Source: an uncultured Blautia sp. (lineage in GTDB: Bacteria; Bacillota; Clostridia; Lachnospirales; Lachnospiraceae). From it: DNA of 16,288 bases. Below the pieces are notes generated by a model, which saw only the letters and a list, made by a program, of their open reading frames with translations, was not told the origin of the DNA and searched no databases. The DNA lies in NCBI GenBank assembly GCA_934409175.1, contig CAKRVX010000043.1:1-16288 (forward strand), read 5' to 3'. Shown here one piece after another: positions 1 to 16,227 of the stretch. Every line of letters starts with the position of its first letter. The stretch's first letter is position 1. The translations under genes were made by a program, and so were the position numbers.

Positions 1-45
1 ACGCTGCTTGCACTCGGTACATGCTAATGTAATCTTAACGCGCAC
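1..45 (-). CDS. rpmG: 50S ribosomal protein L33, N-terminal fragment (runs off left edge)
   Basis: Only the first 15 codons lie in the window. Read on the minus strand from a GTG at 45-43 they give MRVKITLACTECKQR, the characteristic start of Firmicute L33, including the first CxxC zinc-ligand pair. A very good Shine-Dalgarno site (GGAGGTGG, complement of 51-58) lies 5 bases upstream and decides the GTG start. L33 is a small protein of the large ribosomal subunit; in many Firmicutes rpmG is followed by secE and nusG, which would lie beyond the edge here (not seen). The reading frame stays open upstream to an ATG at 123-121, but that codon has no ribosome binding site. Confidence 0.9.
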   Translation of the reverse strand, partial: MRVKITLACTECKQR

Positions 46-137
46 AACTTCCACCTCCAGTGTTTTCATTTGCATGGCCATTTTCTCATACCTGACAATG
101 TATCCGTCATCTTTTTCGGGCATAAAAAAAAGACCTA

Positions 138-183
138 ACTTCCATGTCGCTCGTCAAGTTTATCACAAAACAGCTATGGAAGT
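138..183 (-). other. Inverted repeat plus T-run overlapping the rpmG promoter; possible weak terminator of the GGDEF gene
   Basis: On the minus strand ACTTCCAT (176-183) and ATGGAAGT (138-145) are perfect 8-base inverted arms around a 30-base loop, followed six bases later by eight T (124-131). The upstream arm overlaps the rpmG -35 box. It could act as an inefficient terminator for transcripts from the diguanylate cyclase gene, but the long loop and the gap before the T-run make this doubtful. The rest of 46-227 shows nothing else. Confidence 0.3.
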
Positions 184-186
184 CAA
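159..186 (-). promoter_or_regulatory. Promoter of rpmG (extended -10)
   Basis: Minus strand: -35 TTGACT (181-186), 16-base spacer, -10 GATAAA (159-164) preceded by TGT, so an extended -10. It would start transcription near 152, giving a leader of roughly 105 bases. A run of eight T (minus strand, 124-131) lies inside this leader. Confidence 0.6.
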
Positions 187-227
187 GCCTTTTTATTAAA
201 TTAAGATATTTAAAACGAAAAAGATTT

Positions 228-2039
228 TCAGACAATATACCAGGTTCCCTTATTGGTTCTTTTTACTTCATAAAGTCCTTTATCTGCTTTCTTATACAGT
301 TCCTGGAAGGTATCCTGTTCATTCTGTGTGATCGCTACTCCCATAGAAACAGAAATGGTAACAGCCTCTCCTTCATTCTCATATGTAATATGAAGCTGTT
401 CGGACAATGTCTTTACCCTCTTTTCTACTACATTTGCAGGAATGTCCCTGAAAAATACTACAAACTCATCTCCGCCCAGTCTGCAAACCACATCCTGCAA
501 ACGACAATGATCTTTCATAATCTTCACCACATCATGAAGTGCACGGTCTCCCCACATATGCCCCAGACGATCATTCAATCTCTTAAAGTTATCCAAATCG
601 GCAATTACAAATGCATGAACATTTCCACCAGAAGGCACCGTTTTAAGTATTCTTTCGATTCTTTCAGTTCCTGCCGCCCGTATTGCAGCGCCTGTAAGCG
701 GATCTGTTTCATTATCTGTAACATCTTCTATGCTTCCTACCATACGTGAAACAGCCCCTGAATCGTCAAAAATATTCGTTGTATATATCTGCAGATAACG
801 CTGTCTGCCCTTTGACCACACGGATATTTTCTGACGGCTGGTTGTCTGTTTATCTTCAATTGTCTTCAGAATATTTTCAATATCAGTGCAAGTCTGAGGA
901 CTGAGTTTGCTGATATTTTTAAGAAGAATCGGTACACTCAGCTGTTGCTGATCCAGACCAATGTCCTTATATTTATCATTCAGAAACTGAATCAGTTCTG
1001 TTTCTACATCATACGTAAAAACGCAGGTAGCACTGCTTCTGGCTGTAATCCGGTAAGTTTCTTCATTCAGCATCAGTTTTTTATTCAACCTTCTGATATA
1101 ATGTTTATCTTCTCTCTGGAAATACTGATATACGACAAGTACCAGAAGAAGTATTCCCATAAGTCTGGCTGTAAGCCGTATCACATATTTCTGATATACA
1201 GTACTTTCCTTCAGAATCTCTGTCTCTTTTATAGTAGTGACAGTATACAGTCTCACATCCCGCACAGGTGCAATAACTGCCAGCATTTCTGTTTCAGAAT
1301 CTCCATATATCTCAAACGGGACAGTCACATTATCCTTAATTCTAAGCTGAATTGTAGGCATCAGTACACTAAGTTCCTTCGAACTCATATCCGCAAAGAA
1401 ATTTGTTCCTGCTGTGTTCCGAACATCCTGCTTTAACAGATAATTACCATCTTCATCCAGAATAAAAAGATTCCTTTTTTCTTTTTCTTTGGCCGTATCA
1501 TTAAAGATATTCAGTCTGGTACAGGATAATATTCCGCAAAGCACCCCCTCTACCTGATGTCCATCATTGTAGATTGGCACGGAAAGTACAACTCCACTTT
1601 TATATGTGGTACCATTTTTGCTGATACTTTTATTTCCGGCTATACTTGTCTTAAAATAGCTTTCTGTGGAATAATCTTTCTCCATCAACAGACTTTTCCC
1701 ATTTTTATCCAGAACCCTCATGTATATAAAATGGGTTTCTTTTTTGTTATACGCTTTTCCAAGAAATTTCTGGGTTTCCTCACTGTCCAGAGGCATATCC
1801 TTTATTTTTCTCGCAGCTGATTCCAATATCTCATAATATCTGGCTGTTCTATATTGCATCAGTCTTGCATTCTGTTCTGTCCATTCCGTCACATAATCAT
1901 ATTTTTTATTCTTCTCTGTTTTTTTCAGTGTTGCATTGAACTCTATCAGGGAATACACCATAAATACCACTGCAAGCACCACTATCAGAGTCATGACTTT
2001 TTTTGTTTTTTTCTTATTATACGTTCCTTCCACGTTCAT
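228..2039 (-). CDS. Membrane-bound diguanylate cyclase (Cache-like sensor, PAS-like, GGDEF)
   Basis: A 603-residue protein predicted to make cyclic di-GMP from two GTP at the membrane. Helix 1 (about 15-34) and helix 2 (about 286-307) bracket an extracellular region of some 250 residues with a double-Cache-like layout, the type that binds small ligands. A PAS-like segment (about 323-442) follows, then a GGDEF domain (about 445-603). The active-site motif GGDEF is intact at 522-526, and the metal-binding DLDNFKRLND lies at 481-490. An RLQD at 513-516, exactly five residues before GGDEF, is a canonical RxxD inhibitory site, so product inhibition is expected. There is no EAL or HD-GYP domain. 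The ATG at 2039 has AGGAG only three bases upstream; a GTG two codons later is better spaced. It lies downstream of the polysaccharide operon but has its own promoter, so it may tune surface polymer or adhesion (inference). Confidence 0.92.
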   Translation of the reverse strand: MNVEGTYNKKKTKKVMTLIVVLAVVFMVYSLIEFNATLKKTEKNKKYDYVTEWTEQNARLMQYRTARYYEILESAARKIKDMPLDSEETQKFLGKAYNKKETHFIYMRVLDKNGKSLLMEKDYSTESYFKTSIAGNKSISKNGTTYKSGVVLSVPIYNDGHQVEGVLCGILSCTRLNIFNDTAKEKEKRNLFILDEDGNYLLKQDVRNTAGTNFFADMSSKELSVLMPTIQLRIKDNVTVPFEIYGDSETEMLAVIAPVRDVRLYTVTTIKETEILKESTVYQKYVIRLTARLMGILLLVLVVYQYFQREDKHYIRRLNKKLMLNEETYRITARSSATCVFTYDVETELIQFLNDKYKDIGLDQQQLSVPILLKNISKLSPQTCTDIENILKTIEDKQTTSRQKISVWSKGRQRYLQIYTTNIFDDSGAVSRMVGSIEDVTDNETDPLTGAAIRAAGTERIERILKTVPSGGNVHAFVIADLDNFKRLNDRLGHMWGDRALHDVVKIMKDHCRLQDVVCRLGGDEFVVFFRDIPANVVEKRVKTLSEQLHITYENEGEAVTISVSMGVAITQNEQDTFQELYKKADKGLYEVKRTNKGTWYIV

Positions 2040-2048
2040 TTACTCCTG

Positions 2049-2073
2049 TTCAGACACCCAAAAAACATCTGAA
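2049..2073 (-). other. Small hairpin in the GGDEF-gene leader, just before its RBS
   Basis: Minus strand TTCAGA (2068-2073) and TCTGAA (2049-2054) are perfect six-base arms separated by a 13-base loop containing six T. The hairpin would lie directly upstream of the AGGAG ribosome binding site of the diguanylate cyclase gene. It might affect translation initiation, though six A/T-rich pairs are weak. Confidence 0.3.
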
Positions 2074-2088
2074 TACATTTTTATTTCA

Positions 2089-2117
2089 AATATATCTGTA
2101 CCACCAATGCTTGTCAA
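2089..2117 (-). promoter_or_regulatory. Near-consensus promoter of the diguanylate cyclase gene
   Basis: Minus strand: -35 TTGACA (2112-2117, consensus), 17-base spacer, -10 TATATT (2089-2094, one mismatch). It lies in the 114-base gap after the SDR gene, so the cyclase can be expressed separately from the polysaccharide operon. No intrinsic terminator is visible between the SDR stop and this promoter, so read-through from upstream is also possible. Confidence 0.75.
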
Positions 2118-2153
2118 ACAGAACGCTTTATCCGGTCATATTCCCTGCAAATA

Positions 2154-2891
2154 TCAGAAATAATCGTATCCTCCATGGATATCCACAATACTTCCATTCA
2201 TATAATGATTTGTCAGAATACTATATGCCATATCTGCTACTTCCCGCGTCTGTCCAAAGCGGTGCAACGCAATTTTGCGGTTAATCCTTTCATAGCTTTC
2301 CTGCGTCCTGTTCTCATGCCAGGGCGTCTCTATGAATCCAGGAGCTATTGCATTTACTCTGATTCCCTGAGGTTCAAATTCTTTAACCAGTGACTTGGTC
2401 AGAAAATGAATTGCCGCTTTTGTCACTCCGTATACAACTGAGGAGGAATAAGCCTGCTGTCCTGCGTAAGACCCCATAAAAAGAACACTTCCTCCCTTTG
2501 TCATAACAGGCATAAATTCTTTTATCATAAATACGGGAATGGACAGGTTTGTATTTACAATTCTATTCCATTCTTCAAAAGTATAATCTTTAAATTTATC
2601 ATACGTACTGATCCCGGCATTGCTGATCAGCCAGTCCACATGTCCCACCTGCTTTTTTACCTTGCTTACAAATGCTGTCATATCTTCATAGGAAGACATA
2701 TCTGCTTTTAAAATAATCAATCTCTCCTGATATTCAGGACTAAGACTGTCCCAGAATTTCTCCGCTTTCTTTGCATCATGAGCATATGTGGCAAATATCA
2801 GATCATCTTTTTCAGAATTTTCCAGAATTTTTTCTACGATTCCTCTTCCGATTCCGGAAGTACCTCCTGTAATTACAGTTACTTTGCTCAT
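2154..2891 (-). CDS. Short-chain dehydrogenase/reductase (classical SDR)
   Basis: A 245-residue NAD(P)-dependent oxidoreductase of the classical SDR family, the usual length. The cofactor motif TGGTSGIG is at 8-15, NAG at 91-93, and the catalytic set is complete: N115 region (NTN 113-115), S141, Y154 and K158 in YGVTK. PG at 184-185 is the conserved turn after the active site. The substrate cannot be read from sequence; SDRs reduce ketones or oxidise alcohols. It is the last gene of the polysaccharide operon, 84 bases after the TPP enzyme, so the most economical idea is that it reduces the keto group formed by that enzyme, or acts on a sugar-derived intermediate (inference). Start: ATG at 2891 with AGAAGGTGA about eight bases upstream. 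Confidence 0.9.
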   Translation of the reverse strand: MSKVTVITGGTSGIGRGIVEKILENSEKDDLIFATYAHDAKKAEKFWDSLSPEYQERLIILKADMSSYEDMTAFVSKVKKQVGHVDWLISNAGISTYDKFKDYTFEEWNRIVNTNLSIPVFMIKEFMPVMTKGGSVLFMGSYAGQQAYSSSVVYGVTKAAIHFLTKSLVKEFEPQGIRVNAIAPGFIETPWHENRTQESYERINRKIALHRFGQTREVADMAYSILTNHYMNGSIVDIHGGYDYF

Positions 2892-2919
2892 ATATTTTCA
2901 CCTTCTGTTTCCAGTATAT

Positions 2920-2956
2920 CAGATATTAAATAGCCGACACGTTGACATAATATCTG
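2920..2956 (-). repeat. Intergenic inverted repeat between the TPP enzyme and SDR genes
   Basis: Minus strand CAGATATTA (2948-2956) and TAATATCTG (2920-2928) are perfect nine-base arms with a 19-base loop. The hairpin has no following T-run, so it is not an intrinsic terminator. It could be an RNA processing or stabilising element that sets the expression ratio of the two flanking genes, or an operator; the sequence does not decide. Confidence 0.45.
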
Positions 2957-2975
2957 TATCTTCCTTATTAATTAT

Positions 2976-4718
2976 TTATAAATTCATCAATTTGTCGAAA
3001 ACTTCCTTTGGTGCATAGGGCTGCTGATTGTGAATCGGCTCTCCCAGGCATGTTTTCGGATATGCATAAGTTCCATGCTCCAGCATAACCTCCAGAAGGC
3101 CCGGGCCTTGCTCTTTCAGAAACTGCGGTGCCATTTCCTTTACTGCATCGCACATCATTCTCTTTGCAGGAATTCCATAGGCCTGCGCTACCTTTTCAAA
3201 ATTACAGGATGCAAAACCACAGCCATCTGTAGTTCCGGTAAACAGACAGTCAAAATAGTCTCTCTGAAGATGACGTATCATACCCAGTGCCTCATTATTC
3301 ATGATCAACATTTTTATTGGAAGGTTCTCTCTTTTTACCCATTCCAGCTCCTGAATATTCATCTGGAAAGCTCCGTCTCCACAGATGCATACAGAAGGCT
3401 TACCTGTTGCATAATAGGCCCCGATTGCAGCCGGAAGGCCATACCCCATAGCTCCATGGCCACCGGAAAATAAAAGTTTTTGTCCTTCTCGATTCTTAAA
3501 TGACTGATAGCTCCACACCATATGCTGTCCTACATCTACCGCTATGGCGGAAGTATTCTGTAACATATCACTGAGATCTGCGATCATACGATTGGTATAT
3601 CTCTCAGGAGTCTGATCATCCACTGCCTGCAGATTGTCTTTGATCTCTTTGCATACCAACAGCCAGTCGCTGAACTTCTTCGGTTCTCTGCGGTTTTCCT
3701 CCTCCATGCACTGAATCACAGCCCCTGTTTCCGCCTGGAGTTTCTTCTCGTTTATACCATTCTCATGGATGTCTCTTTTCAGATTATATGAATCAATGTC
3801 CACCCGGATGATTTTTGCACCTTTTGCAAATTCATGCACCTTTGTTCCAATCTGTCTGGTGCACAGGGAAATACCAAAGCATAAAAGCAAATCGCTCTTT
3901 GCATTGGCGATCATATTGGCATAACGATGTCCATAGGCCCCTCCGATACAGCCGAAATTTAAGGGATGGTCATATGGCAAAACTGATTTCGCCAGAACAC
4001 TGGTAATAACAGGAATATCCCTTTTCCGGGCAAAACTGATCAGCCTCTGCTGACTGACTGCACTATCCACACCATGACCAAGCATGATCACAGGGCGTTC
4101 TGACTGCTCCAGTGCTTCCAGTATAACATCCGTCACTTCTTTCGCCTGCCCACGATCTGTATGCTGATCTGTAAATTCCATATCATAAACAGGTTCCTCT
4201 ATCTCACTTCTCTGAATGTTCATAGGCAGATCAATAAGTACAGGTCCCCTTCTGCCGGTAGTAGCAATATGGTACGCTTTATTAAGCTCCGGCACGATAT
4301 CTTCGGGTTTACGGATCTGTACCGCATATTTCGTAATCGGCTTTACCATGGAAATAATATCTGTTTCCTGAAATCCCTGCTGACGCAGGCCCTTAATTCC
4401 CGAATATTCATACGTATTCAGCTGCCCTGTCAAAAAGACAACCGGCAAAGAATCATAATAAGCATCTGCTACACCACTTAGCAGATTTACTGCTCCCGGA
4501 CCACTGGTAGCATAAGCACAGGCACACTGCTCCTTTGCCTGGGCATAACCACAGGCTGCAAAAGCAGCTCCCTGTTCATTATAACAGGAATGATTCTCTG
4601 TCAGCGGATTTCTCTCGATGGAATCTGCCAGATGCGCGATCATGGTTCCCTGATACCCAAAGAAATGCCTGATACCCTTTTTCTGTAAAAATGCAACAAT
4701 ATAGTCTGAAAGCTTCAT
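2976..4718 (-). CDS. Acetolactate-synthase-like thiamine-diphosphate enzyme of a polysaccharide locus
   Basis: A 580-residue member of the three-domain TPP family (acetolactate synthase, YerE and relatives). The catalytic glutamate lies in NEQGAAFAACGYA (E48), the ATSGPG turn at 71-76, and the C-terminal TPP/Mg motif begins GDGAFQ (447-452) and ends at NN (474-475), 29 residues overall. The middle domain resembles the FAD-binding domain of acetolactate synthases. Such enzymes decarboxylate pyruvate or another 2-oxo acid and add the carbanion to an acceptor carbonyl. No small regulatory subunit or ilv gene is nearby, so branched-chain amino acid synthesis is unlikely. Surface-glycan homologues such as YerE add a two-carbon branch to keto-sugars. 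The start is the ATG at 4718, which has GGAGG at 4724-4728; an in-frame GTG at 4739 lacks a site. The acceptor is unknown. Confidence 0.88.
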   Translation of the reverse strand: MKLSDYIVAFLQKKGIRHFFGYQGTMIAHLADSIERNPLTENHSCYNEQGAAFAACGYAQAKEQCACAYATSGPGAVNLLSGVADAYYDSLPVVFLTGQLNTYEYSGIKGLRQQGFQETDIISMVKPITKYAVQIRKPEDIVPELNKAYHIATTGRRGPVLIDLPMNIQRSEIEEPVYDMEFTDQHTDRGQAKEVTDVILEALEQSERPVIMLGHGVDSAVSQQRLISFARKRDIPVITSVLAKSVLPYDHPLNFGCIGGAYGHRYANMIANAKSDLLLCFGISLCTRQIGTKVHEFAKGAKIIRVDIDSYNLKRDIHENGINEKKLQAETGAVIQCMEEENRREPKKFSDWLLVCKEIKDNLQAVDDQTPERYTNRMIADLSDMLQNTSAIAVDVGQHMVWSYQSFKNREGQKLLFSGGHGAMGYGLPAAIGAYYATGKPSVCICGDGAFQMNIQELEWVKRENLPIKMLIMNNEALGMIRHLQRDYFDCLFTGTTDGCGFASCNFEKVAQAYGIPAKRMMCDAVKEMAPQFLKEQGPGLLEVMLEHGTYAYPKTCLGEPIHNQQPYAPKEVFDKLMNL

Positions 4719-4723
4719 AATTT

Positions 4724-4728
4724 CCTCC
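4724..4728 (-). promoter_or_regulatory. RBS deciding the TPP enzyme start
   Basis: Minus strand GGAGG (4724-4728) followed by AAATT and ATG (4718-4716). The 49-base gap from the preceding LicD-like gene shows no terminator or clear promoter, so the gene is probably co-transcribed. Confidence 0.7.
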
Positions 4729-4767
4729 ATGCTTATCACGCACAGATTCAGACAGTTATTTCTCTTC

Positions 4768-5928
4768 TCAGATCAATGTCCCTATCTTTTCTCTCTGCAC
4801 GGTTTTTCCTGTTTTCTCCAGAACATCTGTATAAATATCCAGGATTTCCTCATCTTCTGCAAAAATCTCTCCTTTTTCGAGACTTTTCTGCATCATTTTA
4901 TAATATGGCCGGAAAAACTTTTCCAGCGTCATAAAATCTTCATTCTTATAAAGGTTTTTGATATAGTCTTTATTTTTTTCATAAAAAATTCCCAGATTCA
5001 TACGTTTTCCACAAAATTCTACATATTCCCAGCTCTCGTCAAAATACTCCTTCATTCTGCGGCTTTTCCTGATCTTTTTCATGATTTTCAGCCGTTCTTT
5101 AACAAATCCGTCAAAATTTCCCGCTTCTTTCCACATCTGTGAATAACTGACTTCTGCACTGATAATTGTCTGAGATGGTATGACATATTTTTCTTCTTTG
5201 TTCTCTTTATAATTTGGCCCATAGCTTATGGTCAGATACTGCTTTGTATTCTCCGGAACCATAAACTTTATTCCTTCCAGTTCCACTGTTTTCGTTTTTT
5301 TCAAAAGTTCCGCAGGGTAAACAGTTATCTGTTTTTTTCTCTTAAGAGTATACGTTGCGGTACCTGGATTTTGCTGACTTCTGCACAATCCCATATAAAT
5401 GCTTCTGGCAGTTTTCTGTCTGCCAGTGATCATACAACGAAGTTTTATGAGTATCTTACTGCAGAATATCTTTAATCCAGTACCTCCACTCGTCTGGTCG
5501 CAATTTTCCAGCCATCCCGTTTCCCCTATTGTAAGCCATCTCTTTTTCAGTCCGGATGGCCCGTCAGCTCTCAGAGGATAGATTGTAATTCCCATCCCCG
5601 GATATGCGTATTCTCTGGGTGAATCAAGGTTAATACAGACAGTATCTGTATTTTCATATCTGAGATAGAATCCCGGGAAATACTTATGAGTTCGCATGGA
5701 TTCCAGTGCGCGTTTTTCTCTGGGATCTTCTTCCACTGCCTGACGAAACCTTTCCATCTCCCCGGTTTTCATCAACACCACTCCAAATGATGGATTCTGT
5801 GGAAAAGGAAATCCTTCCTCTGCACATAGAGCAAGGCGCGGTGACAGATAATATTCTATGTCATGCTTCCGGCATATTTCATCAATTTCTTTTAATAAAG
5901 ATAAAATTACCTTCTGTTTCTTATTCAA
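4768..5928 (-). CDS. LicD-like protein lacking the catalytic aspartates (degenerate paralogue of its upstream neighbour)
   Basis: About 386 residues from the TTG proposed here. The first 28 residues align with the start of the adjacent LicD protein (both contain KQK and KEIDEIC followed by an H and a Y). Where the neighbour has PWDDDVD, the nucleotidyltransferase metal site, this protein reads FPFPQNPSFGVV, with no aspartate. Later LicD landmarks survive in weak form: MGITIYPLRADGP corresponds to IDVLTLDPIP, and YLTISYGPNY to the YGDEW segment. The C-terminal part (about 290-386, with FFRPYYKMMQ) resembles the neighbour's FGDYYKIQ region, so the similarity extends beyond the LicD domain. It is probably not catalytic alone and may be a partner or regulator of the intact LicD (inference). 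A longer frame begins at 6078 but would overlap the upstream gene by 122 bases. Confidence 0.72.
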   Translation of the reverse strand: MNKKQKVILSLLKEIDEICRKHDIEYYLSPRLALCAEEGFPFPQNPSFGVVLMKTGEMERFRQAVEEDPREKRALESMRTHKYFPGFYLRYENTDTVCINLDSPREYAYPGMGITIYPLRADGPSGLKKRWLTIGETGWLENCDQTSGGTGLKIFCSKILIKLRCMITGRQKTARSIYMGLCRSQQNPGTATYTLKRKKQITVYPAELLKKTKTVELEGIKFMVPENTKQYLTISYGPNYKENKEEKYVIPSQTIISAEVSYSQMWKEAGNFDGFVKERLKIMKKIRKSRRMKEYFDESWEYVEFCGKRMNLGIFYEKNKDYIKNLYKNEDFMTLEKFFRPYYKMMQKSLEKGEIFAEDEEILDIYTDVLEKTGKTVQREKIGTLI

Positions 5929-5938
5929 TTCTTTATAT

Positions 5939-5944
5939 CCTCTC
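5939..5944 (-). promoter_or_regulatory. RBS supporting a TTG start for the degenerate LicD gene
   Basis: Minus strand GAGAGG (5939-5944), ten bases before TTG (5928-5926). It lies just after the stop codon of the upstream LicD-TPR gene (5957-5959), so the two genes are 28 bases apart. Starting here also brings the N terminus into register with the upstream paralogue's. Confidence 0.55.
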
Positions 5945-5956
5945 TCAATCTGCTGC

Positions 5957-8278
5957 TCATACAATCTTCGATGCCAGTACCTGAATATCTTCCAGACTTC
6001 CGTATTTATCGAGCCATCCATCAAGGGCAGTCTGAATATCGGCCTTCTTTGCAAAGCTTGTCGCCTGTCTGCTTCCATCCTTCAGATCAGTAATAATGAT
6101 CCTGTACAGTTCTGTTTTTACATAAGAGGGAACTGCATATTCCAGAGCCTTTAAATAATTCTCAAAAGCAATTCTCGTCTGACCCTGTTTGCTTCGGATA
6201 TCACCGACAAGTTTATAGACATACACCCGTTCTTCCTTATGAATCTGCCGGTTTCTTACCTGCTCTGCCAGCCATTCCAGTTCACTTTCATCCTCAGTGC
6301 AGATAATATCTGTTCTGAGAGATGCCAGCTCTTTGGGATATCCAAGTCGTCTCCATGCTTTTGTCAGAGCCTTTTTATACATCTGAAGTCCCGGGATTTC
6401 TTTATCTGGAACTGCCTCTCTTTCCTCATCAGTTTCTTTTCCGTCTGATGATATGGAATTCAGCATAGGCGTTCCTATTTTCTGGCATATTTCACTGATC
6501 TCACCCTCAATTTCGCTTTGAGTGTGTGCACAGGAAACCTTTGCCAGATATAAACCACTGATCATGTCCTCATCATCAGGAAGAATTCTGTTCCACAATT
6601 TCATAGTCCGCAATGCTTCCGTCTTTGCACGTTCTGCGATCATACGCTCACAGTTTGACAAAATCTGTTTTTTATATGGCTGAAATAATCTGTCCATCTC
6701 CATCCAGATCATACCATTGGATGTTTTCTCCCGTACCTGTGCATAAATCTCCAGTGCCTTTTCACCGTTTCCATTCATCCAGAGAATATCTGCTCTGTAT
6801 TTAAGGAAATAACCGTCATCAGGAAAAAGCTTCAATGCCTCTTCCAGGAAGCGTTCTGCTTCCAGTCTGTGTTCTGCTGCATCAACCATCATAAAACGGC
6901 ATTTAAATTTCATCAGTCCCGGATGCTTTGGATATTTTTGAAGTAACTCTTCACAGATTCTGGAAGCCTCATCCATTCGCTGAAATTCATAATGATCCGC
7001 AGCCTTACGAAACAGTTCTATATCCGTTTTCAGATTCTGCATATTCTGACTGAGATGATCCTGCTTTTCCCGTATTTCCAGCATACGGTATGCTTTGGAA
7101 ACTCTTTCTGTATAAAACAGAGTCTGCACAGCAGTCATAAATATGTCCTCCGGAAGTTCTATAAGTATCGGATGATAAAATGCATAAATAAATGTATAAT
7201 CTTCTCTTCCGATAAACTCTGCACTGAGCTGTATCTTGTAATAGTCCCCGAAAAGTTTTGACAGTCTGTCATACTCTCCCTTTGCCAGCGCTTCAGAAAG
7301 ATTCAGACCTGACTCCGCTATGGTCTTCTGGAGATCCAGTGCTGCTACCTTTGCCTTCATTCTGAAGCTCTCCTGGCGCAGTCTGTGCTTCTTTTTAGCC
7401 ATACGCATATTATAAAATTTTCTTCTGGCAGCGTTAAAACGAAGTTTTCCTTTTTTCAGCTTCGGCATATAATCCTCTCGGAATTCTTCAAAAGAAGCAT
7501 CCTGTACAGACACAGCCACATGTCCCTCTCTGCTGTCGTGAGGAGGCATATATGACCATTCATCACCGTAATGCCATATCAGATAATCACTGCAATGATT
7601 GGGGATCATCACCCTCTCCCCTTCAAATTTTCCGTATTTTACCGGAAAAAGCATATCTTTTTCAAAAAGGAACGGACATCCGCCCCACCGCATGGCATAT
7701 CTGTCACATTCTTCCTCATTGTAGGAAAACATAATCTTCTCCAGCTTACGTAAAGTTCTGTTTTTTCCGAGAAAAACATACGAAAGCAGATATTTCAGAT
7801 ACAGAGACGCCGGAATTTCCCAACGATCACTGTATCCTACTGAAATATTGATCAGATCCGAATAGATCATCATATGTGTTCTGTATTTCTCATACTCCTT
7901 GTCATCCGCAGGGATAGGATCCAACGTAAGTACATCTATAATTTCTCCAGCACAATCCCTGCCAATAATCTGACTCTTGTGAATCACACAGGTATCCGCC
8001 GATGCATAACGCGGAAAAGAATTAGTATAAGTTCTGTCCACATCTGAACACTGTATCTTTCTGTCGGATGGCAGTTCTGTTTCACAGATCTTTACAAACT
8101 TCTCCCAGTCGGATCTGGGCATATACAGATCCACATCGTCATCCCATGGAACAAATCCTTCATGGCGGACGGCCCCCACAAGGGAACCTCCCGCCATCAC
8201 ATACCGAAGATTATGTTCTTTACAGATTTCATCAATCTCCTTAAAAAGTTTCAGGAGATATTTTTGTTTTTCCGTCAT
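5957..8278 (-). CDS. LicD-family phosphotransferase with a C-terminal TPR-like helical extension
   Basis: A 773-residue protein. The N-terminal third (about 1-275) is a LicD-type nucleotidyltransferase-fold domain: MAGGSLVGAVRHEGFVPWDD (28-47), with the metal-binding aspartates D46, D47, D48 and D50 intact, then IDVLTLDPIP (114-123) and WHYGDEWSYMPP (235-246). LicD proteins transfer phospho-substituents, classically phosphocholine, from CDP-activated donors to surface glycans or teichoic acids. The remaining roughly 490 residues are helical and TPR-like; RICEELLQKYPKHPG (440-454) and EEALKLFPDDGYFLKYRADI (479-498) are typical repeat halves. Stand-alone LicD proteins are usually about 270-300 residues, so the tail is an addition, perhaps for protein partners. 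It starts three bases after the cytidylyltransferase fusion gene, with AAAGGA overlapping that gene's end, so translation is probably coupled. No membrane segment is evident. Confidence 0.88.
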   Translation of the reverse strand: MTEKQKYLLKLFKEIDEICKEHNLRYVMAGGSLVGAVRHEGFVPWDDDVDLYMPRSDWEKFVKICETELPSDRKIQCSDVDRTYTNSFPRYASADTCVIHKSQIIGRDCAGEIIDVLTLDPIPADDKEYEKYRTHMMIYSDLINISVGYSDRWEIPASLYLKYLLSYVFLGKNRTLRKLEKIMFSYNEEECDRYAMRWGGCPFLFEKDMLFPVKYGKFEGERVMIPNHCSDYLIWHYGDEWSYMPPHDSREGHVAVSVQDASFEEFREDYMPKLKKGKLRFNAARRKFYNMRMAKKKHRLRQESFRMKAKVAALDLQKTIAESGLNLSEALAKGEYDRLSKLFGDYYKIQLSAEFIGREDYTFIYAFYHPILIELPEDIFMTAVQTLFYTERVSKAYRMLEIREKQDHLSQNMQNLKTDIELFRKAADHYEFQRMDEASRICEELLQKYPKHPGLMKFKCRFMMVDAAEHRLEAERFLEEALKLFPDDGYFLKYRADILWMNGNGEKALEIYAQVREKTSNGMIWMEMDRLFQPYKKQILSNCERMIAERAKTEALRTMKLWNRILPDDEDMISGLYLAKVSCAHTQSEIEGEISEICQKIGTPMLNSISSDGKETDEEREAVPDKEIPGLQMYKKALTKAWRRLGYPKELASLRTDIICTEDESELEWLAEQVRNRQIHKEERVYVYKLVGDIRSKQGQTRIAFENYLKALEYAVPSYVKTELYRIIITDLKDGSRQATSFAKKADIQTALDGWLDKYGSLEDIQVLASKIV

Positions 8279-8281
8279 GTG

Positions 8282-9583
8282 TTATCCTTTCTGGTTAATT
8301 GTTTCAAGTACCTCCAGCAGCTTTACTGACTCATCATAAAAAAGTCTGGTGCATTCTGTTCTCTGATCTCTGATCATGATCATCAGTTCCTGAAGAAGAT
8401 AACGGAATCCATTTCCATCAAAATTAAAGCTGTAACGTTTCAGGAACTCCCGTCCTGAAATGTTCGCCTCGAAATATCCGGTATTCCACCAGTCATTGGG
8501 AATGGTAACTCTTCCATTGCTTCCGATGATCACCATCTCATCTTCCACATCAACAGTAGTTCCAATCTCTATGGTTGCAAGGGCATTTTCATACTTTATG
8601 GTAATCATATCATACACAAATTTTCCATTCCTGTCTGTCACAGCATTCGTATTCACTTCCAGGCAGTCCTTGCCCAGAATCTTGATCACTGCACATATCG
8701 CATTACATACCGTTTCATTAAACGGTTTTCCACCTTCAAAATCATCCTGGGAAATAGAACATTTCACACTGACCAGATCCCCCACCAGATTACTGTGCAC
8801 CAGCCATACAAGCTGTGTAAAAGCCCTCAGATATACTAAAGTCAGACGTTCAATGAGAATTACATTATTCTCTTTCGCCTTTCGGAAAAGGTCTCTTAGT
8901 TTATTCGGAGAAAGTGCTGCAGGCACATCACTGATCACATATTTTCCATTTTCAACAGCACGTTCAATATATTTTTCTCTTTTCGCCTGTTTACACTTAA
9001 TATATACAATATCAATATCATGCAGAAATTCATCATAGTCATTCCACCAGGAATCCAGTTCATATTTGTCACAGAACTCCCGGGCAGTTTTCTCATCCTC
9101 TGAAAAAACACGTTCTACATGAACACCGCTGACATACTTGGACTCCTGTACGAAATCATTATCACAAATATCATCTGTTACAATTCCCATATTAAAGATT
9201 GTACCTTCTCCCCGCAATTTGGTACTGGAAATATTTTTTGTTCTTTCCAGATAGATTACATCGCAGTAATTTTTAAGGTAATCAAATTTTCCTCTCCAGT
9301 CTGAACCGACCACCAGTACATCAATATCATATTTGATAATGTCATTTACCTTCTGACCCTGATATTCCTCAATAATAATCTCATCTGCCAGCCCTGTTCT
9401 TCTCACATTCTCGATTCTCTTGATCAGGCTGTCCCGTACATTAAGCTTTCCACGTTCGATATCATAGCTCTCGCTGGTAACACCAACGATCAGATAATCG
9501 CCCAGAGCTTTCGCGCGTTTTATAATATTATAGTGACCCTTATGAAACAGATCAAAAGTACCATACGTAATTACCTTCTTCAT
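8282..9583 (-). CDS. TagD-like cytidylyltransferase fused to a Gfo/Idh/MocA-like domain
   Basis: 433 residues, two domains. Residues 1-127 form a glycerol-3-phosphate-cytidylyltransferase-like domain: GTFDLFHKGH with HxGH at 14-17, GSDWRGKFD (93-101) and RTKNISSTKLRG (114-125), matching the TagD motifs GDDW..KFD and RTxxISTT. It should form a CDP-alcohol or CDP-polyol from CTP. Residues about 130-430 follow the Gfo/Idh/MocA layout: DIDIVYIKCKQAKREKYIERAV (189-210), then GKYVISDVPAALS (213-225). The Rossmann glycine motif is absent after the linker (MGIVTDDICD) and the usual EKP lysine is replaced by DVP (219-221), so NAD(P)-dependent catalysis is doubtful. First gene of the LicD/TPP/SDR operon, with promoter at 9663-9691 and AGGGGA before the ATG. 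The natural alcohol phosphate is not deducible from sequence. Confidence 0.87.
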   Translation of the reverse strand: MKKVITYGTFDLFHKGHYNIIKRAKALGDYLIVGVTSESYDIERGKLNVRDSLIKRIENVRRTGLADEIIIEEYQGQKVNDIIKYDIDVLVVGSDWRGKFDYLKNYCDVIYLERTKNISSTKLRGEGTIFNMGIVTDDICDNDFVQESKYVSGVHVERVFSEDEKTAREFCDKYELDSWWNDYDEFLHDIDIVYIKCKQAKREKYIERAVENGKYVISDVPAALSPNKLRDLFRKAKENNVILIERLTLVYLRAFTQLVWLVHSNLVGDLVSVKCSISQDDFEGGKPFNETVCNAICAVIKILGKDCLEVNTNAVTDRNGKFVYDMITIKYENALATIEIGTTVDVEDEMVIIGSNGRVTIPNDWWNTGYFEANISGREFLKRYSFNFDGNGFRYLLQELMIMIRDQRTECTRLFYDESVKLLEVLETINQKG

Positions 9584-9662
9584 ATAATCCCCTGTATTCT
9601 GTCTTTGACAGCAATTCTATTTGCTTTATATTTTCTTTACTATTATTTCACCATTATTTTTA

Positions 9663-9691
9663 ATTATAACATAGATCAGTTCTCCCGTCAT
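9663..9691 (-). promoter_or_regulatory. Promoter of the cytidylyltransferase-LicD-TPP-SDR operon
   Basis: Minus strand: -35 ATGACG (9686-9691), 17-base spacer, -10 TATAAT (9663-9668) preceded by TGT, a consensus extended -10. Predicted start near 9656, leaving a leader of about 70 bases that is A/T-rich without obvious structure. The next four genes follow with short gaps, so this is probably the main operon promoter. Confidence 0.75.
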
Positions 9692-9763
9692 TACTTTGTA
9701 AAAAAAGTGATATGTTTTTGTAATGATAACAAATCCACATCCACTTTGGGAAGATAACAACAA

Positions 9764-9800
9764 AAGCTCCGGAAACAATTCCTGTATGTCTCCAGAGCTT
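9764..9800 (-). terminator. Intrinsic terminator after the acyltransferase gene
   Basis: Minus strand AAGCTCTGGA (9791-9800) pairs over ten positions, with one G-U, with TCCGGAGCTT (9764-9773), followed by TTTGTTGTTATCTT. It separates the acyltransferase from the downstream operon, whose promoter lies about 75 bases further on. The plus strand also has a T-rich flank, but no plus-strand gene is near. Confidence 0.75.
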
Positions 9801-9814
9801 ATTTTTATCTTTCG

Positions 9815-11212
9815 TTATTTAACAGAATCCTGTCCATCTTTATTCGCATCTTGCGAATTCTGATTTTCCAGCGCCTGATTTTCCATTTGTCTGGTAGTAG
9901 CTTCCAGTTCTTTCATCAGTTCATCCAGAGTCAGTTCCCGTTCTTCTTCCTCAAGAGGCTGCCCGGCTATATCATCCAGATTATCCTCTTCTATATCCAT
10001 CTCATATTCGGCATCAGTGCCTGGATTTTTATCCTTTACACCGGTTTCTGTTTCTTCTACCTCAGGATCCGGACTGCCTACATGATCTTTATCCGGTTCC
10101 AAAGTTGCCGCCAGTTCTTCGATGGCTTTTTTACGCTGTTTCAGTGTTTCATATTTATTCTCATCACTGTCATATTCTTCTTCCAGTCCCTCATCTCTGA
10201 CGGTCTTATCCTTCTTAAAAAGAATAAATGCTATAACATTGACCACACCTGTATATATCCAGTCCACAGGAAGACTTCCAAGTATCAGGATAAATACCAG
10301 TGATACTCCAAGCAATGCCCATACATTGGTCAGTTCAGGAATCCTCAGCAGATACAGACCATTCATAATGATCATGATCGGATAATGGAAAAAATAAATC
10401 CCCATAGTATGACGGCCAATATACGTCAATGGTAATTTCATATCCGGCATCAGTGCCAGAAATGTATAGATCACAATAAAAGATACCAGATACATCAGAA
10501 GCCTGATCACGATTCCCTCCTGATCAGTCAGCCCACAAAGCTGATATCTGTGGTTCGCACGAAAAATGGCAATTCCCATATCATTAGTGATCATATAGTT
10601 CGGGATTGCCCAGAGCAGTACAGCAGAAATGGGAACAAGAACCCATTTACCCTTAAATCTGCGTACAGCTGTGATATATTCACTTTTCCATAAATATCCG
10701 GCCACAAAAAACGGGAAAAATACCACGATTCTGGACGCTGATAAAAATGTGGTAAACTCCGGTCTGGTTCCTGCCCATAATGCAAAGATAATACTTAGTG
10801 GAACAATAAACCGTATCTTACCCATAGCTTCGATCGTCAGTCTGTATGCAAAAAGTGCCAGAACATACCACATAACTGTTCCTGTAGGTCTGAGTATTTC
10901 ATAATCTACGGATCTGCCCAGCCAGACCTGTGCATACCATGTAAGTGTATATCCCAGAATGTACGGAATCAGGAGATTCTTTACATTCTTCAGAACATTC
11001 TGCGGTTTCTTTGACAAATATCCTGATACAAAAATAAAAGCAGGCATATGGAAAATCGTAATCCCATACCAGATATATCGTACTACTACATCCACCTTTA
11101 CAAGATTAAATGCAATAATATGGTTGAAAACTACCAGGAAAATAAGTAATACTTTAATATTGTCTATCAGGTAGGAATACGGAACAGCCGACCTGTCTGT
11201 TTTAAATTTCAT
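9815..11212 (-). CDS. Membrane acyltransferase (acyltransferase-3 / fucose 4-O-acetylase-like) with an acidic tail
   Basis: About 465 residues from the ATG at 11212. The first 335 or so are hydrophobic with roughly ten membrane helices, and open with the family pattern: IDNIKVLLIFLVVFNHIIAF, carrying the conserved histidine, then FHMPAFIFVSGYL. Another family-like block is YIGRHTMGIYFFHYPI. These proteins acylate extracytoplasmic sugars, usually with acetyl groups, so O-acetylation of the locus's glycan is likely. From about 335 on, a soluble tail of about 130 residues is very rich in Glu and Asp (for example GLEEEYDSDE, EEEERELTLDELMKELEA) with a coiled-coil-like end; this is not part of the enzyme fold. 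A TTG two codons upstream is in frame, but AGAAGGG is much better spaced for the ATG. It has its own promoter and terminator, so it is a single-gene unit. Confidence 0.87.
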   Translation of the reverse strand: MKFKTDRSAVPYSYLIDNIKVLLIFLVVFNHIIAFNLVKVDVVVRYIWYGITIFHMPAFIFVSGYLSKKPQNVLKNVKNLLIPYILGYTLTWYAQVWLGRSVDYEILRPTGTVMWYVLALFAYRLTIEAMGKIRFIVPLSIIFALWAGTRPEFTTFLSASRIVVFFPFFVAGYLWKSEYITAVRRFKGKWVLVPISAVLLWAIPNYMITNDMGIAIFRANHRYQLCGLTDQEGIVIRLLMYLVSFIVIYTFLALMPDMKLPLTYIGRHTMGIYFFHYPIMIIMNGLYLLRIPELTNVWALLGVSLVFILILGSLPVDWIYTGVVNVIAFILFKKDKTVRDEGLEEEYDSDENKYETLKQRKKAIEELAATLEPDKDHVGSPDPEVEETETGVKDKNPGTDAEYEMDIEEDNLDDIAGQPLEEEERELTLDELMKELEATTRQMENQALENQNSQDANKDGQDSVK

Positions 11213-11247
11213 ACTCAAAGTGCCCTTCTGAAAATTTTATTAATCTA

Positions 11248-11276
11248 AGCATAACATATTTTTATGATTTTTGGAA
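11248..11276 (-). promoter_or_regulatory. Possible promoter of the acyltransferase gene
   Basis: Minus strand: extended -10 TGTTATGCT (hexamer TATGCT, 11248-11253), 17-base spacer, weak -35 TTCCAA (11271-11276). It sits in the 83-base gap after the glycosyltransferase, where no terminator is seen, so read-through from the upstream pair is also possible. Confidence 0.5.
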
Positions 11277-11295
11277 TAGAAACTTAACAACAGCT

Positions 11296-12042
11296 TTAAT
11301 GAAAGTATTTCCATACTCCATTTACTGCATATGAAATAAAGAAAATACTGCTTCTCAGGTGACCATACCCTACGTATCTGTAAGCACGGTAGGTCATAGC
11401 TGCTGATTTCAGTTTATTTCTTGATTTTCCGCCTTCACTGAGCCGGTATTTAAGATACGGTTTGTCGATACCTGCTGCATATCCATATTTCTTCAGGACT
11501 TTAAGCCATGTAATATAATCTTCATGGCTGTCATCATGTTCCATTGGAAATTCCAGCGCCGCTTCTCTGCGAATGAGCACAGAAGAACAGTTAATACAGT
11601 TATGTTTCAGAAGATCTCTGTAACGGATCGTTTCCCTCACCGAAATGTATCGTCCTGTATCCCTTCCGTCAGATGTCATAAGTTCTCTTCCTGTAGAACA
11701 CATAACCATTCCGGTCCTTTCAAGTACTTCCAGTTGTTCCTTAAGTTTTCCGTTCTCCCACCAGTCATCTGCATCCAGGAAAGCAATATATTTTCCTCCT
11801 GCTTCCTGCACTCCACGGTTTCTGGAACGGGCCGCTCCCATATTTTGACTGTTCTTAATATATCGAAAGTCCTCTCTGCCATCCCAGGCAGACAGGACTT
11901 CCTCTGTACGGTCCGTAGAGCCATCATCTATAACCAGCAGTTCCACAGGGACTCGCTGTTCATAGACAGATTCCACGGCTTTTTTTATATATTTCTCTCC
12001 ATTATAAACCGGCATGATTACAGATACCAGCGGTTTGTTCAT
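11296..12042 (-). CDS. Family 2 glycosyltransferase (GT-A fold)
   Basis: 248 residues from the second ATG. The N terminus is typical GT2: VSVIMPVYNGEKYIKKAVES, then LLVIDDGSTD (36-44) and the metal-binding FLDADDWW (88-95). HEDY (173-176) supplies the likely catalytic-base region. Such enzymes transfer one sugar from a nucleotide-sugar donor in the cytosol to a lipid-linked or protein acceptor; the sugar cannot be predicted. There is no transmembrane helix, only a modestly hydrophobic stretch near the C terminus (ISYAVNGVW). The gene lies two bases after the sugar-phosphate transferase gene, so it most likely adds the second sugar to the primed polyprenyl carrier. Two ATGs are available (12048 and 12042); GGAGG is seven bases from the second and only two from the first, so 12042 is chosen. 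Confidence 0.92.
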   Translation of the reverse strand: MNKPLVSVIMPVYNGEKYIKKAVESVYEQRVPVELLVIDDGSTDRTEEVLSAWDGREDFRYIKNSQNMGAARSRNRGVQEAGGKYIAFLDADDWWENGKLKEQLEVLERTGMVMCSTGRELMTSDGRDTGRYISVRETIRYRDLLKHNCINCSSVLIRREAALEFPMEHDDSHEDYITWLKVLKKYGYAAGIDKPYLKYRLSEGGKSRNKLKSAAMTYRAYRYVGYGHLRSSIFFISYAVNGVWKYFH

Positions 12043-12044
12043 GA

Positions 12045-13445
12045 TCATTCCTCCGTTTTATCCTTATCAGTTTTCACAGTATTTCCGGAATCCTTTAATG
12101 CATTTACCTGCTTATCATCTACACCTTCAGAGACTTCCTTCTGGAAAAATATCTTCACTGTCATAAAAATAAGCTTGATATCCAACAGAAAAGAATAATT
12201 TTCAATATAAAACAGATCCAGTTTCAATTTATCGTAAGGAGTTGTATTATATTTTCCATAAACCTGTGCATACCCCGTCAGTCCGGCTTTCACCTTCAGG
12301 CGATAATAAAACTCCGGTAATTCTTTCTCATATTCACGCATGATCATCATTCGCTCCGGTCGCGGGCCTACCAGGGCCATATCTCCCTTAAACACATTAA
12401 AAAGCTGTGGCAGTTCATCCAGATGAAGATTTCTCAACACTTTTCCCACAGGAGTGATCCTGGAATCATGTTTTGACGCCAGACGCGCCCCGTTTTTTTC
12501 GGAGTCCACACACATACTGCGGAATTTGCATATCTTAAAAGATCTGCCTCCTACAGTGAGACGATCCTGAAAATAAAATACCGGTCCTCTGTCATATAAC
12601 TTCACCGCAGCAGCAATGATCAGCATGATCGGAGAAGCTATTATAATTCCGATCCCCGAAACCAGAATATCCATCGCCCTTTTCGCAACTCTCTGATCTA
12701 CTGACAATCCCATATTTCTGGACATGAGCAGCGGCGTATCAAAAAGATGAATTCTGTCGCTTCCCATCAGTATGATGTCTGAAATTTTCGGACTGACATA
12801 GCATCGAATGGAATGAGCAAAGCAATATTTAAGATAACGGTTTCTCTCTGTAGACGGAAGATCCCAGATGATCACGCCATCATAATTTTTCATCAGATAG
12901 TGAATTTCCTTTTCTCCTATACTGGAATGCACTTTACCACTGATATTATATTTATCCTTTCTGGAATTCATTTTATGGATCAGATCATCTCCCGGATCCC
13001 GGTCTCCATAAATGACCAGAAGATTTCTGGCACGATACAGTTTGGAATATATATATCTGGATCCCCAGATCCATATGATGATAAGAATCAGCTGAAAACC
13101 AGTCATTTCCACCATTGGCCATACACTGAGGAACCATCTGTTAATCAGGGTGATCTCAAAGTATTCCACTACATTGGTACAAAGCAAGGCCAGTGTAAGC
13201 GAATAAAACACATCGATTCTTTTCAGGTATCCTACCTTCAGTCCACCATACAGCTTGGCAAACATGGCAAACATCATTCCATAGATTGCTATCAGTACCC
13301 AGTTTCCTTTTCTCCAGAATGGTTCATCGATCTGTCCACGATAAACTGTATACCATACATAGGCAAAAACTACCATCTGTGCCAGAACTGCCAGGCTGGC
13401 CAGACAGAATACGATCAAGCGTTTATAATCTTCTCTTTTATTCAC
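12045..13445 (-). CDS. Polyprenyl-phosphate sugar-phosphate transferase (initiating transferase, WcaJ/CpsE type)
   Basis: 466 residues. Hydrophobic helices occupy about 9-35, 48-66, 78-98 and 112-128, then a cytosolic Rossmann-like segment (about 140-240), then the catalytic C-terminal domain. The re-entrant helix segment ASPIMLIIAAAVKLYDRGPV (270-289) carries the helix-breaking proline; KFRSM (307-311), LDELPQLFNVFKGDMALVGP (342-361, with the catalytic D343-E344 pair), RPE, and GLTGYAQVYGKYNT (388-401) are all intact. The enzyme moves a hexose-1-phosphate from a UDP-sugar to undecaprenyl phosphate, the first step of exopolysaccharide or glycoprotein glycan assembly. Sugar specificity (glucose, galactose or another) is not deducible. 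Start is GTG (13445-13443) with AGAGGT about seven bases upstream; no ATG fits. First gene of the minus-strand locus, sharing the intergenic region with glgC. Confidence 0.94.
   Translation of the reverse strand: MNKREDYKRLIVFCLASLAVLAQMVVFAYVWYTVYRGQIDEPFWRKGNWVLIAIYGMMFAMFAKLYGGLKVGYLKRIDVFYSLTLALLCTNVVEYFEITLINRWFLSVWPMVEMTGFQLILIIIWIWGSRYIYSKLYRARNLLVIYGDRDPGDDLIHKMNSRKDKYNISGKVHSSIGEKEIHYLMKNYDGVIIWDLPSTERNRYLKYCFAHSIRCYVSPKISDIILMGSDRIHLFDTPLLMSRNMGLSVDQRVAKRAMDILVSGIGIIIASPIMLIIAAAVKLYDRGPVFYFQDRLTVGGRSFKICKFRSMCVDSEKNGARLASKHDSRITPVGKVLRNLHLDELPQLFNVFKGDMALVGPRPERMMIMREYEKELPEFYYRLKVKAGLTGYAQVYGKYNTTPYDKLKLDLFYIENYSFLLDIKLIFMTVKIFFQKEVSEGVDDKQVNALKDSGNTVKTDKDKTEE
12050..12054 (-). promoter_or_regulatory. 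RBS deciding the GT2 start
   Basis: Minus strand GGAGG (12050-12054), inside the last codons of the sugar-phosphate transferase gene, seven bases before ATG 12042. The overlap with the upstream coding sequence suggests translational coupling. Confidence 0.7.
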
Positions 13446-13494
13446 GTAATACCTCTTATTTCTTCTTATTTATAGCTTTTTTTCTCACTTTCCC

Positions 13495-13523
13495 ATTATA
13501 GACCAAGAAATATGGTACGTCCA
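13495..13523 (-). promoter_or_regulatory. Promoter of the sugar-phosphate transferase gene
   Basis: Minus strand: -35 TGGACG (13518-13523), 17-base spacer, consensus -10 TATAAT (13495-13500). Predicted start near 13488, giving a purine-rich leader of about 43 bases before the GTG. Confidence 0.72.
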
Positions 13524-13544
13524 CCCGTTTTCGTTAAATTCGTG

Positions 13545-13598
13545 TATAATGCTATAAACCCCCAAAATGATTTCTCCGCATTGTTTTGTATATAATGC
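13545..13598 (+). repeat. Two copies of TATAATGC between the divergent promoters
   Basis: TATAATGC occurs at 13545-13552 and 13591-13598, 46 bases apart, on the plus strand. Neither has a good -35 box at 16-18 bases, so they may be weak extra glgC promoters, a regulator site, or chance in A/T-rich DNA. The whole 13446-13726 gap otherwise holds only the two divergent promoters. Confidence 0.25.
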
Positions 13599-13662
13599 AT
13601 AATTTTTTGACAGTTTTTATCTATTTCTAGCGAAAAGTTTACATATTTTTTTCATAAACCTA

Positions 13663-13691
13663 TGGAAATCTATAAAGAAAAATTGTATAAT
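13663..13691 (+). promoter_or_regulatory. Promoter of glgC-glgD
   Basis: -35 TGGAAA (13663-13668), 17-base spacer, consensus -10 TATAAT (13686-13691). Predicted start near 13698, so the leader is only about 28 bases and contains the GAGGG ribosome binding site. Confidence 0.7.
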
Positions 13692-13726
13692 AATTCATAA
13701 GTAAATGAAAGCGAGGGTTCACTATT

Positions 13727-14866: not shown

Positions 14867-14867
14867 T

Positions 14868-15992: not shown

Positions 15993-16020
15993 TCTGTCAT
16001 TTATATTCAGGCTGGAAATC

Positions 16021-16059
16021 AAAACATCCCCGGAAGCAACTACTCCGGGGATGTTTTTT
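16021..16059 (+). terminator. Strong intrinsic terminator after glgD
   Basis: AACATCCCCGGA (16023-16034) and TCCGGGGATGTT (16044-16055) form a perfect 12-pair stem with a nine-base loop, extended by two A-T pairs and followed by a T-run to 16059. The A-run before the stem gives some terminator character on the other strand too. Confidence 0.93.
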
Positions 16060-16083
16060 CACATATTCTTCACATTTCTGGCC

Positions 16084-16111
16084 TTGCATTTCAATCACGG
16101 CGTGTTATAAT
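16084..16111 (+). promoter_or_regulatory. Promoter of rplY/ctc
   Basis: -35 TTGCAT (16084-16089), 16-base spacer, extended -10 TGTTATAAT with consensus hexamer at 16106-16111. Predicted start near 16118, so the leader is about 110 bases long. Confidence 0.72.
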
Positions 16112-16144
16112 ACACTTGTAACAAAGATAAAGAACAAACAACTG

Positions 16145-16162
16145 AATACTTAAAATACTTAA
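16145..16162 (+). repeat. Tandem 9-base direct repeat in the rplY leader
   Basis: AATACTTAA occurs twice head to tail (16145-16153, 16154-16162) in the predicted untranslated leader. A related AATACTTTAA begins at the second codon of the gene (16231). Confidence 0.5.
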
Positions 16163-16227
16163 CACCACCTGAATCAAAGATAGTGTCAAGCGTGTCACCT
16201 CAGCTGTAATTATGGAGGAAAAGTCAA

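Follow-up and report, generated by a model that had tools for sequence, protein, structure and literature searches.

We analysed a 16,288-nucleotide stretch of DNA from an uncultured Blautia sp. (assembly GCA_934409175.1, contig CAKRVX010000043.1, positions 1 to 16,288, hereafter the window), in which five genes at 2154-9583 on the minus strand combine a YerE-like thiamine diphosphate (ThDP) carboligase with proteins of cytidine diphosphate (CDP)-alcohol chemistry. Our tentative reading, which we hold at a little under even confidence, is that this cluster would make a branched-chain polyol phosphate, carry it as a CDP-polyol and attach it to a glycan. All five genes, which a first-pass annotation of this DNA had proposed, proved to be real and in place. 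In order of transcription they encode a fusion of a TagD-like cytidylyltransferase with a Gfo/Idh/MocA-fold domain, a LicD phosphotransferase with TPR repeats, a second LicD-like protein, the ThDP enzyme and a short-chain dehydrogenase/reductase (SDR). The first-pass annotation had to be amended in that there are two LicD-type genes, the second of which lacks the WDDDxD motif, and in that the fusion partner is a motif-less Gfo/Idh/MocA domain. The enzyme classes, the motifs kept and lost and the conservation of the linkage are established from the sequences.

GTDB species genomes were scanned with an alignment of close homologues of the ThDP enzyme. The 35 loci obtained (L001-L035), mostly from Blautia and other Lachnospiraceae with some bins of Bacilli, were picked up via the words VGQHMVW and FFGYQGTM and are thus a biased sample of the family. 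The best-matching loci were from Blautia (85% for L001, and 84% for L002, from B. wexlerae). The fusion lay within the fetched flank at 33 of the 35 loci. The two misses were L033, whose contig begins inside the ThDP gene and which is probably the other half of L027 from the same bin, and L024, which has an IS605-type transposase downstream. A full-length SDR accompanied the ThDP enzyme at 29 of the 35 loci, and a 38-residue remnant of it was found in L024. The order of the genes differed between lineages (fusion-LicD-LicD-ThDP-SDR, LicD-ThDP-fusion-SDR, SDR-ThDP-fusion or fusion-SDR-ThDP), indicating that the linkage outlived rearrangement, and in L029, L030, L032 and L035 fusion, SDR and ThDP enzyme alone formed a tight unit. 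In 64 genomes of the genus to which B. wexlerae (L002) belongs, one and the same set of 23 carried the ThDP enzyme (E up to 1e-90), the SDR (1e-60) and the fusion (1e-60), the fusion additionally occurring in three more at about 40% identity; as these genomes come from related species, a simple probability for the co-occurrence is inapplicable. Among 250 genomes of the family, the fusion (1e-40) was present in 23 and the ThDP enzyme (1e-100) in six. Both occurred in two genomes, in one of which (G219) they lie on different contigs and the ThDP enzyme groups with the yersiniose type. On the evidence of the 35 loci and of the 64 genus genomes, the ThDP enzyme, the SDR and the fusion form a conserved module, with a linkage far beyond chance, which bears out the co-occurrence expected by the first-pass annotation for these three genes, LicD being no fixed part of the set. 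A LicD domain was detected by tblastn at 26 of the 35 loci; L028 and L030, without LicD, carry CDP-glycerol glycerophosphotransferase-type proteins (PF04464) instead, and L018, L023 and L026 carry both. LicD is thus the usual but replaceable phosphotransferase of the module.

The ThDP enzyme (580 residues) is encoded at 2976..4718 on the minus strand, within an open reading frame (ORF) open to 4739; the start at 4718 is backed by homologues. Its nearest NCBIfam models are acetolactate synthases, yet it scored below all the listed cut-offs, with 376 bits against a cut-off of 538 for the acetohydroxyacid synthase (AHAS) model TIGR00118. The best of 160 matched PDB sequences was 5ahk (329 bits), which we take to be PpYerE, followed by 8rph (266 bits), while AHAS chains reached at most 263 bits. 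The position of Val499 in the 5ahk chain fits V479 of PpYerE, provided that the chain has 20 extra residues (PMC12247030), and 8rph is JanthE (PMC12188165). In a tree of 60 proteins of 500-700 residues, a range that left out L027 and L033, rooted on PoxB, the window enzyme shared a clade with JanthE, 5ahk and the proteins of L095, L096 and L099 (support of 0.96 for the YerE-like clade), and in an inner clade with those of L094-L099 (support 1.0). Glucose-1-phosphate cytidylyltransferase and CDP-glucose 4,6-dehydratase are among the neighbours at L095, L096 and L099, which by gene content are classed as yersiniose-type clusters. Such clusters thus occur in Lachnospiraceae genomes, and one genome (G004) has a cluster of this kind plus the module. 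Each of six host genomes tested contained at least two further acetolactate synthase homologues, with 31-35% identity. Ten AHAS-type paralogues from these genomes grouped with E. coli IlvB and IlvI (support 0.61, or 0.96 without IlvB); a further paralogue from one genome (G005) branched at the base of the AHAS-type group (0.33) and another from the same genome was JanthE-like. The window enzyme lay outside the IlvB/IlvI group.

The residues of the ThDP enzyme told the same relationship. The catalytic glutamate and the GDG...NN ThDP motif were found in 34 of 34 module enzymes, and so were Arg112, Gln113, Tyr262, Arg265 and Lys555, which are common to the yersiniose-type enzymes and are found in no more than 10% of AHAS rows. 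The YerE-type insert, with its RQ pair (Arg112 and Gln113), is present. Tyr262 and Lys555 align with Tyr268 and Lys567 of JanthE, two of the five positions singled out in PMC12188165. Because the best PDB matches, the tree, the insert and the acceptor residues agree, we assign the enzyme as YerE-like and not as an acetolactate synthase. The first-pass annotation had regarded a plain acetolactate synthase as incompatible with its proposal; at the level of sequence, the score of the enzyme and its place in the YerE clade speak against that identity. Eight positions were specific to the module enzymes, including Phe19, Gln23 and Thr25, and the last two sit in a loop whose sequence is GYPGG in the majority of YerE and AHAS rows, a weak hint that the acceptor may be different and smaller.

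The fusion gene (8282..9583, minus strand; PF01467 and PF01408) would provide the activation step. Its cytidylyltransferase half (residues 1-126) kept the HxGH and RTxxIS motifs and formed its own clade beside true TagD. The window fusion reached 109.5 bits with the TagD model TIGR01518, for a cut-off of 165.4. Family searches covered the genomes of 28 of the 35 loci, several of which are draft bins and possibly incomplete: the fusions of these hosts scored 105.7-124.3 bits, all below the cut-off, and separate TagD proteins above it were found in 13 of the 28. Trp74 of TagD was present in none of 55 fusions, against all 11 usable TagD rows, which include 1coz and from which three of 13 fetched TagD pieces had been excluded for a wrong longest reading frame; Lys44 and Lys46 were left out of the comparison as the alignment shifts there. 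The Gfo half kept its fold (AlphaFold2 pLDDT 88; best Foldseek E-value 1.4e-23). Its glycine loop and the lysine of its EKP motif were missing in 33 of 33 module members, whereas both were kept in all eight group-A relatives. This part of the module protein is thus probably no oxidoreductase, and no second reductase, as judged from its motifs. Oxidation of CDP-glycerol by the Gfo half as the source of a ketone was considered and dropped on the same count of lost motifs. The 14 group-B relatives, sister fusions that occur without this ThDP enzyme, were also motif-less. An aminotransferase, either HisC/CobD-like or PhnW-like (one representative of each kind was profile-checked), was present in the fetched stretch of nine of the 14 group-B loci and of one of the eight group-A loci. 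Sister fusions near such aminotransferases and LicD or PF04464 proteins were noted in L073, L080, L081, L084-L087 and L091-L093, which are possible CDP-amino-polyol (serinol-type) pathways. A more distant YerE-like enzyme (35%) stands beside a group-B fusion in L089, and a protein of about 850 residues lies beside the intact-Gfo fusions in five of eight loci (L072, L074, L076, L077 and L079); the one that was scanned had no Pfam match.

The first LicD gene (5957..8278, minus strand) scored 118.6 bits with PF04991, and 31 of 32 aligned rows had the WDDDxD metal motif. The second LicD-like protein (ORF 4768..6078, with a probable start near 5946, minus strand) scored 20.9 bits, below the cut-off of 22.6, and none of its 23 aligned rows had WDDDxD. 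Its model weakly resembled FKRP (E-value 1.7e-4, TM 0.34), a LicD relative solved with CDP-ribitol, and the protein may act as a partner without catalytic activity. The SDR (2154..2891, minus strand; PF13561 and PF00106) has the N-terminal glycine motif and kept YxxxK in 27 of 27 aligned sequences. In L020 a threonine-synthase-like pyridoxal phosphate enzyme (L020:4890-6473), with counterparts in L021 and L022, adjoins LicD; in these three loci the ThDP enzyme and the fusion are present and the SDR is absent. In L025 the module shares one cluster with two class II aldolase-like proteins, three LicD-type proteins and a small separate TagD-like protein.

From these assignments we infer a donor, an acceptor, an order of steps, a product and a glycan target. 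The YerE-like enzyme would decarboxylate pyruvate and place the acetyl group on the keto carbon of a small ketose phosphate, or on that of the corresponding CDP ester, which would yield a tertiary alcohol that bears an acetyl branch. The SDR would then reduce this branch to a 1-hydroxyethyl group. In known branched octoses, too, reduction of the acetyl branch to a hydroxyethyl group is a step of its own, there catalysed by an aldo-keto reductase (PMC4753412). The TagD-like domain would use CTP to link the phosphate to CMP, either ahead of these two steps or following them; activation that precedes reduction is known from the synthesis of CDP-6-glucitol (PMC10918830). Finally the active LicD, perhaps aided by its motif-less partner, would move the polyol phosphate onto a glycan. 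That the chemistry is of the CDP-alcohol kind is suggested by the TagD-like domain together with LicD, or with PF04464 proteins in L028 and L030. As to the acceptor, the loss of the Gfo motifs throughout the module implies that the ketone does not come from a working dehydrogenase within the fusion. Aminotransferase and YerE-like enzyme both need a carbonyl that the fusion does not supply, so that a ready-made ketose phosphate such as dihydroxyacetone phosphate (DHAP) would fit both; in Campylobacter jejuni, Cj1437 aminates DHAP to serinol phosphate for the capsule (PMC11800397). DHAP is our favoured acceptor, although its choice is doubtful and would give CDP-2-C-(1-hydroxyethyl)glycerol as the activated product. 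It is possible, if rather speculative, that the module represents a new ketone-accepting branch of ThDP carboligases that forms 2-C-(1-hydroxyethyl)glycerol from DHAP for CDP activation and phosphodiester linkage to the surface of gut Lachnospiraceae, and that cytidylyltransferases of this family also act in sister pathways in which the ketone is aminated instead.

Several observations weigh against this pathway. The DHAP argument is an analogy between sister pathways, and neither kind of aminotransferase was seen in five of the 14 group-B loci. The monophyly of the module enzymes with respect to the yersiniose type was unsupported (0.28), and the other three of the five JanthE hot-spot residues differ. 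Phe19, Gln23 and Thr25 lie within the search word FFGYQGTM, so that their conservation was partly selected for; this is why the hint at a smaller acceptor is weak, and the bias slightly reduced our confidence in the whole pathway. No SDR was seen in L020, L021, L022, L027 and L028, the contig of L027 stopping at the ThDP gene and that of L020 just past the fusion; its absence from L020, L021, L022 and L028 indicates that the branch-reduction step is not universal. As for the transfer step, the first LicD gene of L003 has lost its LicD domain, the TPR part alone remaining between the fusion and the second LicD gene, and no phosphotransferase gene was seen near the module in L016, L034 and L035.

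The alternatives differ mainly in what the ThDP enzyme is taken to act upon. The first-pass annotation had proposed that pyruvate is joined to an aldehyde phosphate; with glyceraldehyde 3-phosphate, for example, a linear 1-deoxyketose phosphate would arise, to be reduced by the SDR to a 1-deoxypentitol phosphate, activated with CDP and transferred. The linkage of the module applies to this route as well, and YerE-like enzymes were also tested on aldehydes (PMC12247030), but the enzyme clusters with ketone-accepting enzymes in the tree and shares acceptor-site residues with them. We consider the route unlikely: the end of the pathway is retained, and the chain is predicted to be branched rather than linear since the characterised relatives attack ketones. 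A second proposal, the addition of a branch to a nucleotide-linked keto-sugar in the manner of YerE, was right as to the class of the enzyme. The ordinary YerE route, however, would need a CDP-4-keto-deoxyhexose as acceptor, with a yersiniose-like sugar as product, and it starts with glucose-1-phosphate cytidylyltransferase. Relatives of the enzyme do sit in yersiniose-type clusters (L095, L096 and L099), but the ORFs at the 35 loci include no protein of the glucose-1-phosphate cytidylyltransferase cluster, none scored above the cut-off in 24 of the 28 host genomes, possibly incomplete as some of these are, and in the other four it was always on a contig other than that of the module. A CDP-hexose acceptor is therefore disfavoured and we regard this route as very unlikely.

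The module could also house two pathways in one operon: the fusion and LicD would handle an ordinary CDP-alcohol, and an unrelated branched compound would be made by the ThDP enzyme and the SDR. We gave this explanation added weight because the fusion is so often found without the ThDP enzyme (21 of the 23 family genomes, or 22 if G219 is counted as unlinked), and LicD is missing near the core at some loci. Against it, the ThDP enzyme is seldom found without the fusion (the two occur together, variously ordered, at 33 of 35 loci), and in L029, L030, L032 and L035 fusion, SDR and ThDP enzyme make up a tight unit by themselves; we judge the probability of this explanation to be low. A plain acetolactate synthase in a chance neighbourhood would agree with the nearest NCBIfam models; it is made highly improbable by scores below all the cut-offs, by the YerE clade, by the conserved linkage and by the further homologues present in each of the six hosts tested. 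Phosphonate tailoring, in which a ThDP decarboxylase and LicD-like transferases take part, would make the enzyme a phosphonopyruvate decarboxylase and the fusion the activator of a phosphonate. Nucleotidyltransferases do activate phosphonates for cell-surface tailoring (PMC6697681), but the ThDP enzyme belongs to another subclass and phosphoenolpyruvate (PEP) mutase scored above the cut-off in only two of the 28 host genomes, on contigs other than that of the module; we give this explanation next to no credence. The absence of PEP mutase, choline kinase and a ribitol gene, stated in the first-pass annotation, was confirmed for the 10 window proteins scanned. Choline kinase was above the cut-off in six of the 28 host genomes, on contigs other than the module's, and a choline reading was marked down.

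The branched CDP-polyol pathway may be set beside several known systems. The yersiniose A pathway of Yersinia pseudotuberculosis, with YerE and its relatives PpYerE and JanthE, resembles it in the class of the ThDP carboligase, the insert and several acceptor-site residues, in the formation of an acetyl branch followed by ketoreduction, and in the use of CDP chemistry in a surface-glycan setting. The module differs by the absence of CDP-hexose genes, the TagD-type cytidylyltransferase with LicD or TagF-type transferases, the classical SDR and the Gram-positive hosts. YerE-like enzymes are described for deoxy-keto sugars in a review (PMC12247030). The synthesis of CDP-6-D-glucitol in C. jejuni HS:5 (HS5.18 and HS5.17; PMC10918830) likewise has a cytidylyltransferase acting on a ketose phosphate and an SDR, giving a CDP-polyol for a surface polymer, but it has no carbon-carbon bond step, it activates and then reduces, and the cytidylyltransferase of the module is TagD-like. 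With the glycerol-3-phosphate cytidylyltransferase TagD of teichoic acid synthesis, the fusion shares the fold and the HxGH and RTxxIS motifs; it stands apart by its separate clade, its score below the TIGR01518 cut-off, the loss of Trp74 and the joined Gfo-fold domain. Bcs1 of Haemophilus influenzae is reportedly a bifunctional CDP-ribitol synthase with cytidylyltransferase and reductase in one polypeptide; both halves of the fusion belong to other families and its oxidoreductase half is motif-less. Finally, the first LicD gene resembles LicD and FKRP, which uses CDP-ribitol, in its LicD domain with an intact metal motif, whereas the module differs by the TPR extension and the motif-less LicD-fold partner.

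The transcription signals around the cluster were also inspected. The intergenic gaps, in transcription order, are 3, -122, 49 and 84 nt, the value of -122 being based on the first ATG of the second LicD ORF, for which a later start is likely. A promoter-like site with an extended -10 element was found by promoter scan upstream of the fusion (9663..9691, minus strand), in a scanned region that held 30 such sites against 35.0 expected by chance and thus no excess. A terminator-like hairpin with a T-rich tail (9765..9799, minus strand) separates the fusion from the upstream acyltransferase gene. Its energy of -27.7 kcal/mol corresponds to a z-score of -4.5 against 200 shuffles, which should be read with the fact that the stretch was picked after the repeat had been noticed. 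As the hairpin isolates the unit from the acyltransferase gene and the promoter-like site then follows, a single transcript from one promoter is plausible for the five genes. The acyltransferase-3 membrane protein (9815..11218, minus strand; PF01757) is the usual upstream neighbour, present at 19 of the 35 loci, and may add acyl groups to the product or to the glycan. Downstream of the module, at 228-2039, lies a diguanylate cyclase gene (GGDEF and a Cache-like part) with its own promoter-like site (2117-2089); GGDEF-type ORFs also lie downstream of the module in L001 and L002. Scans of the window with Rfam (gathering scores) and for tRNA genes were empty.

Overall, the first-pass interpretation was partly supported. 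The description of the cluster as an uncharacterised CDP-activated substituent pathway holds: in the open-licence literature, among the matches listed, we found no publication on this cluster, no report of a YerE-like enzyme in a CDP-polyol setting and no CDP-polyol pathway with a step that forms a carbon-carbon bond; one paper on Fusobacterium proved to mention the terms together by chance. If the branched CDP-polyol pathway is correct, it would account for proteins in glycan loci that otherwise go by the name of acetolactate synthase, it would open the uncharacterised cytidylyltransferase-Gfo family to simple assays, and biocatalysis would gain a ThDP subclass that possibly takes small phosphorylated ketones. 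For the bacteria themselves, it would mean a new kind of surface decoration in common inhabitants of the human gut.

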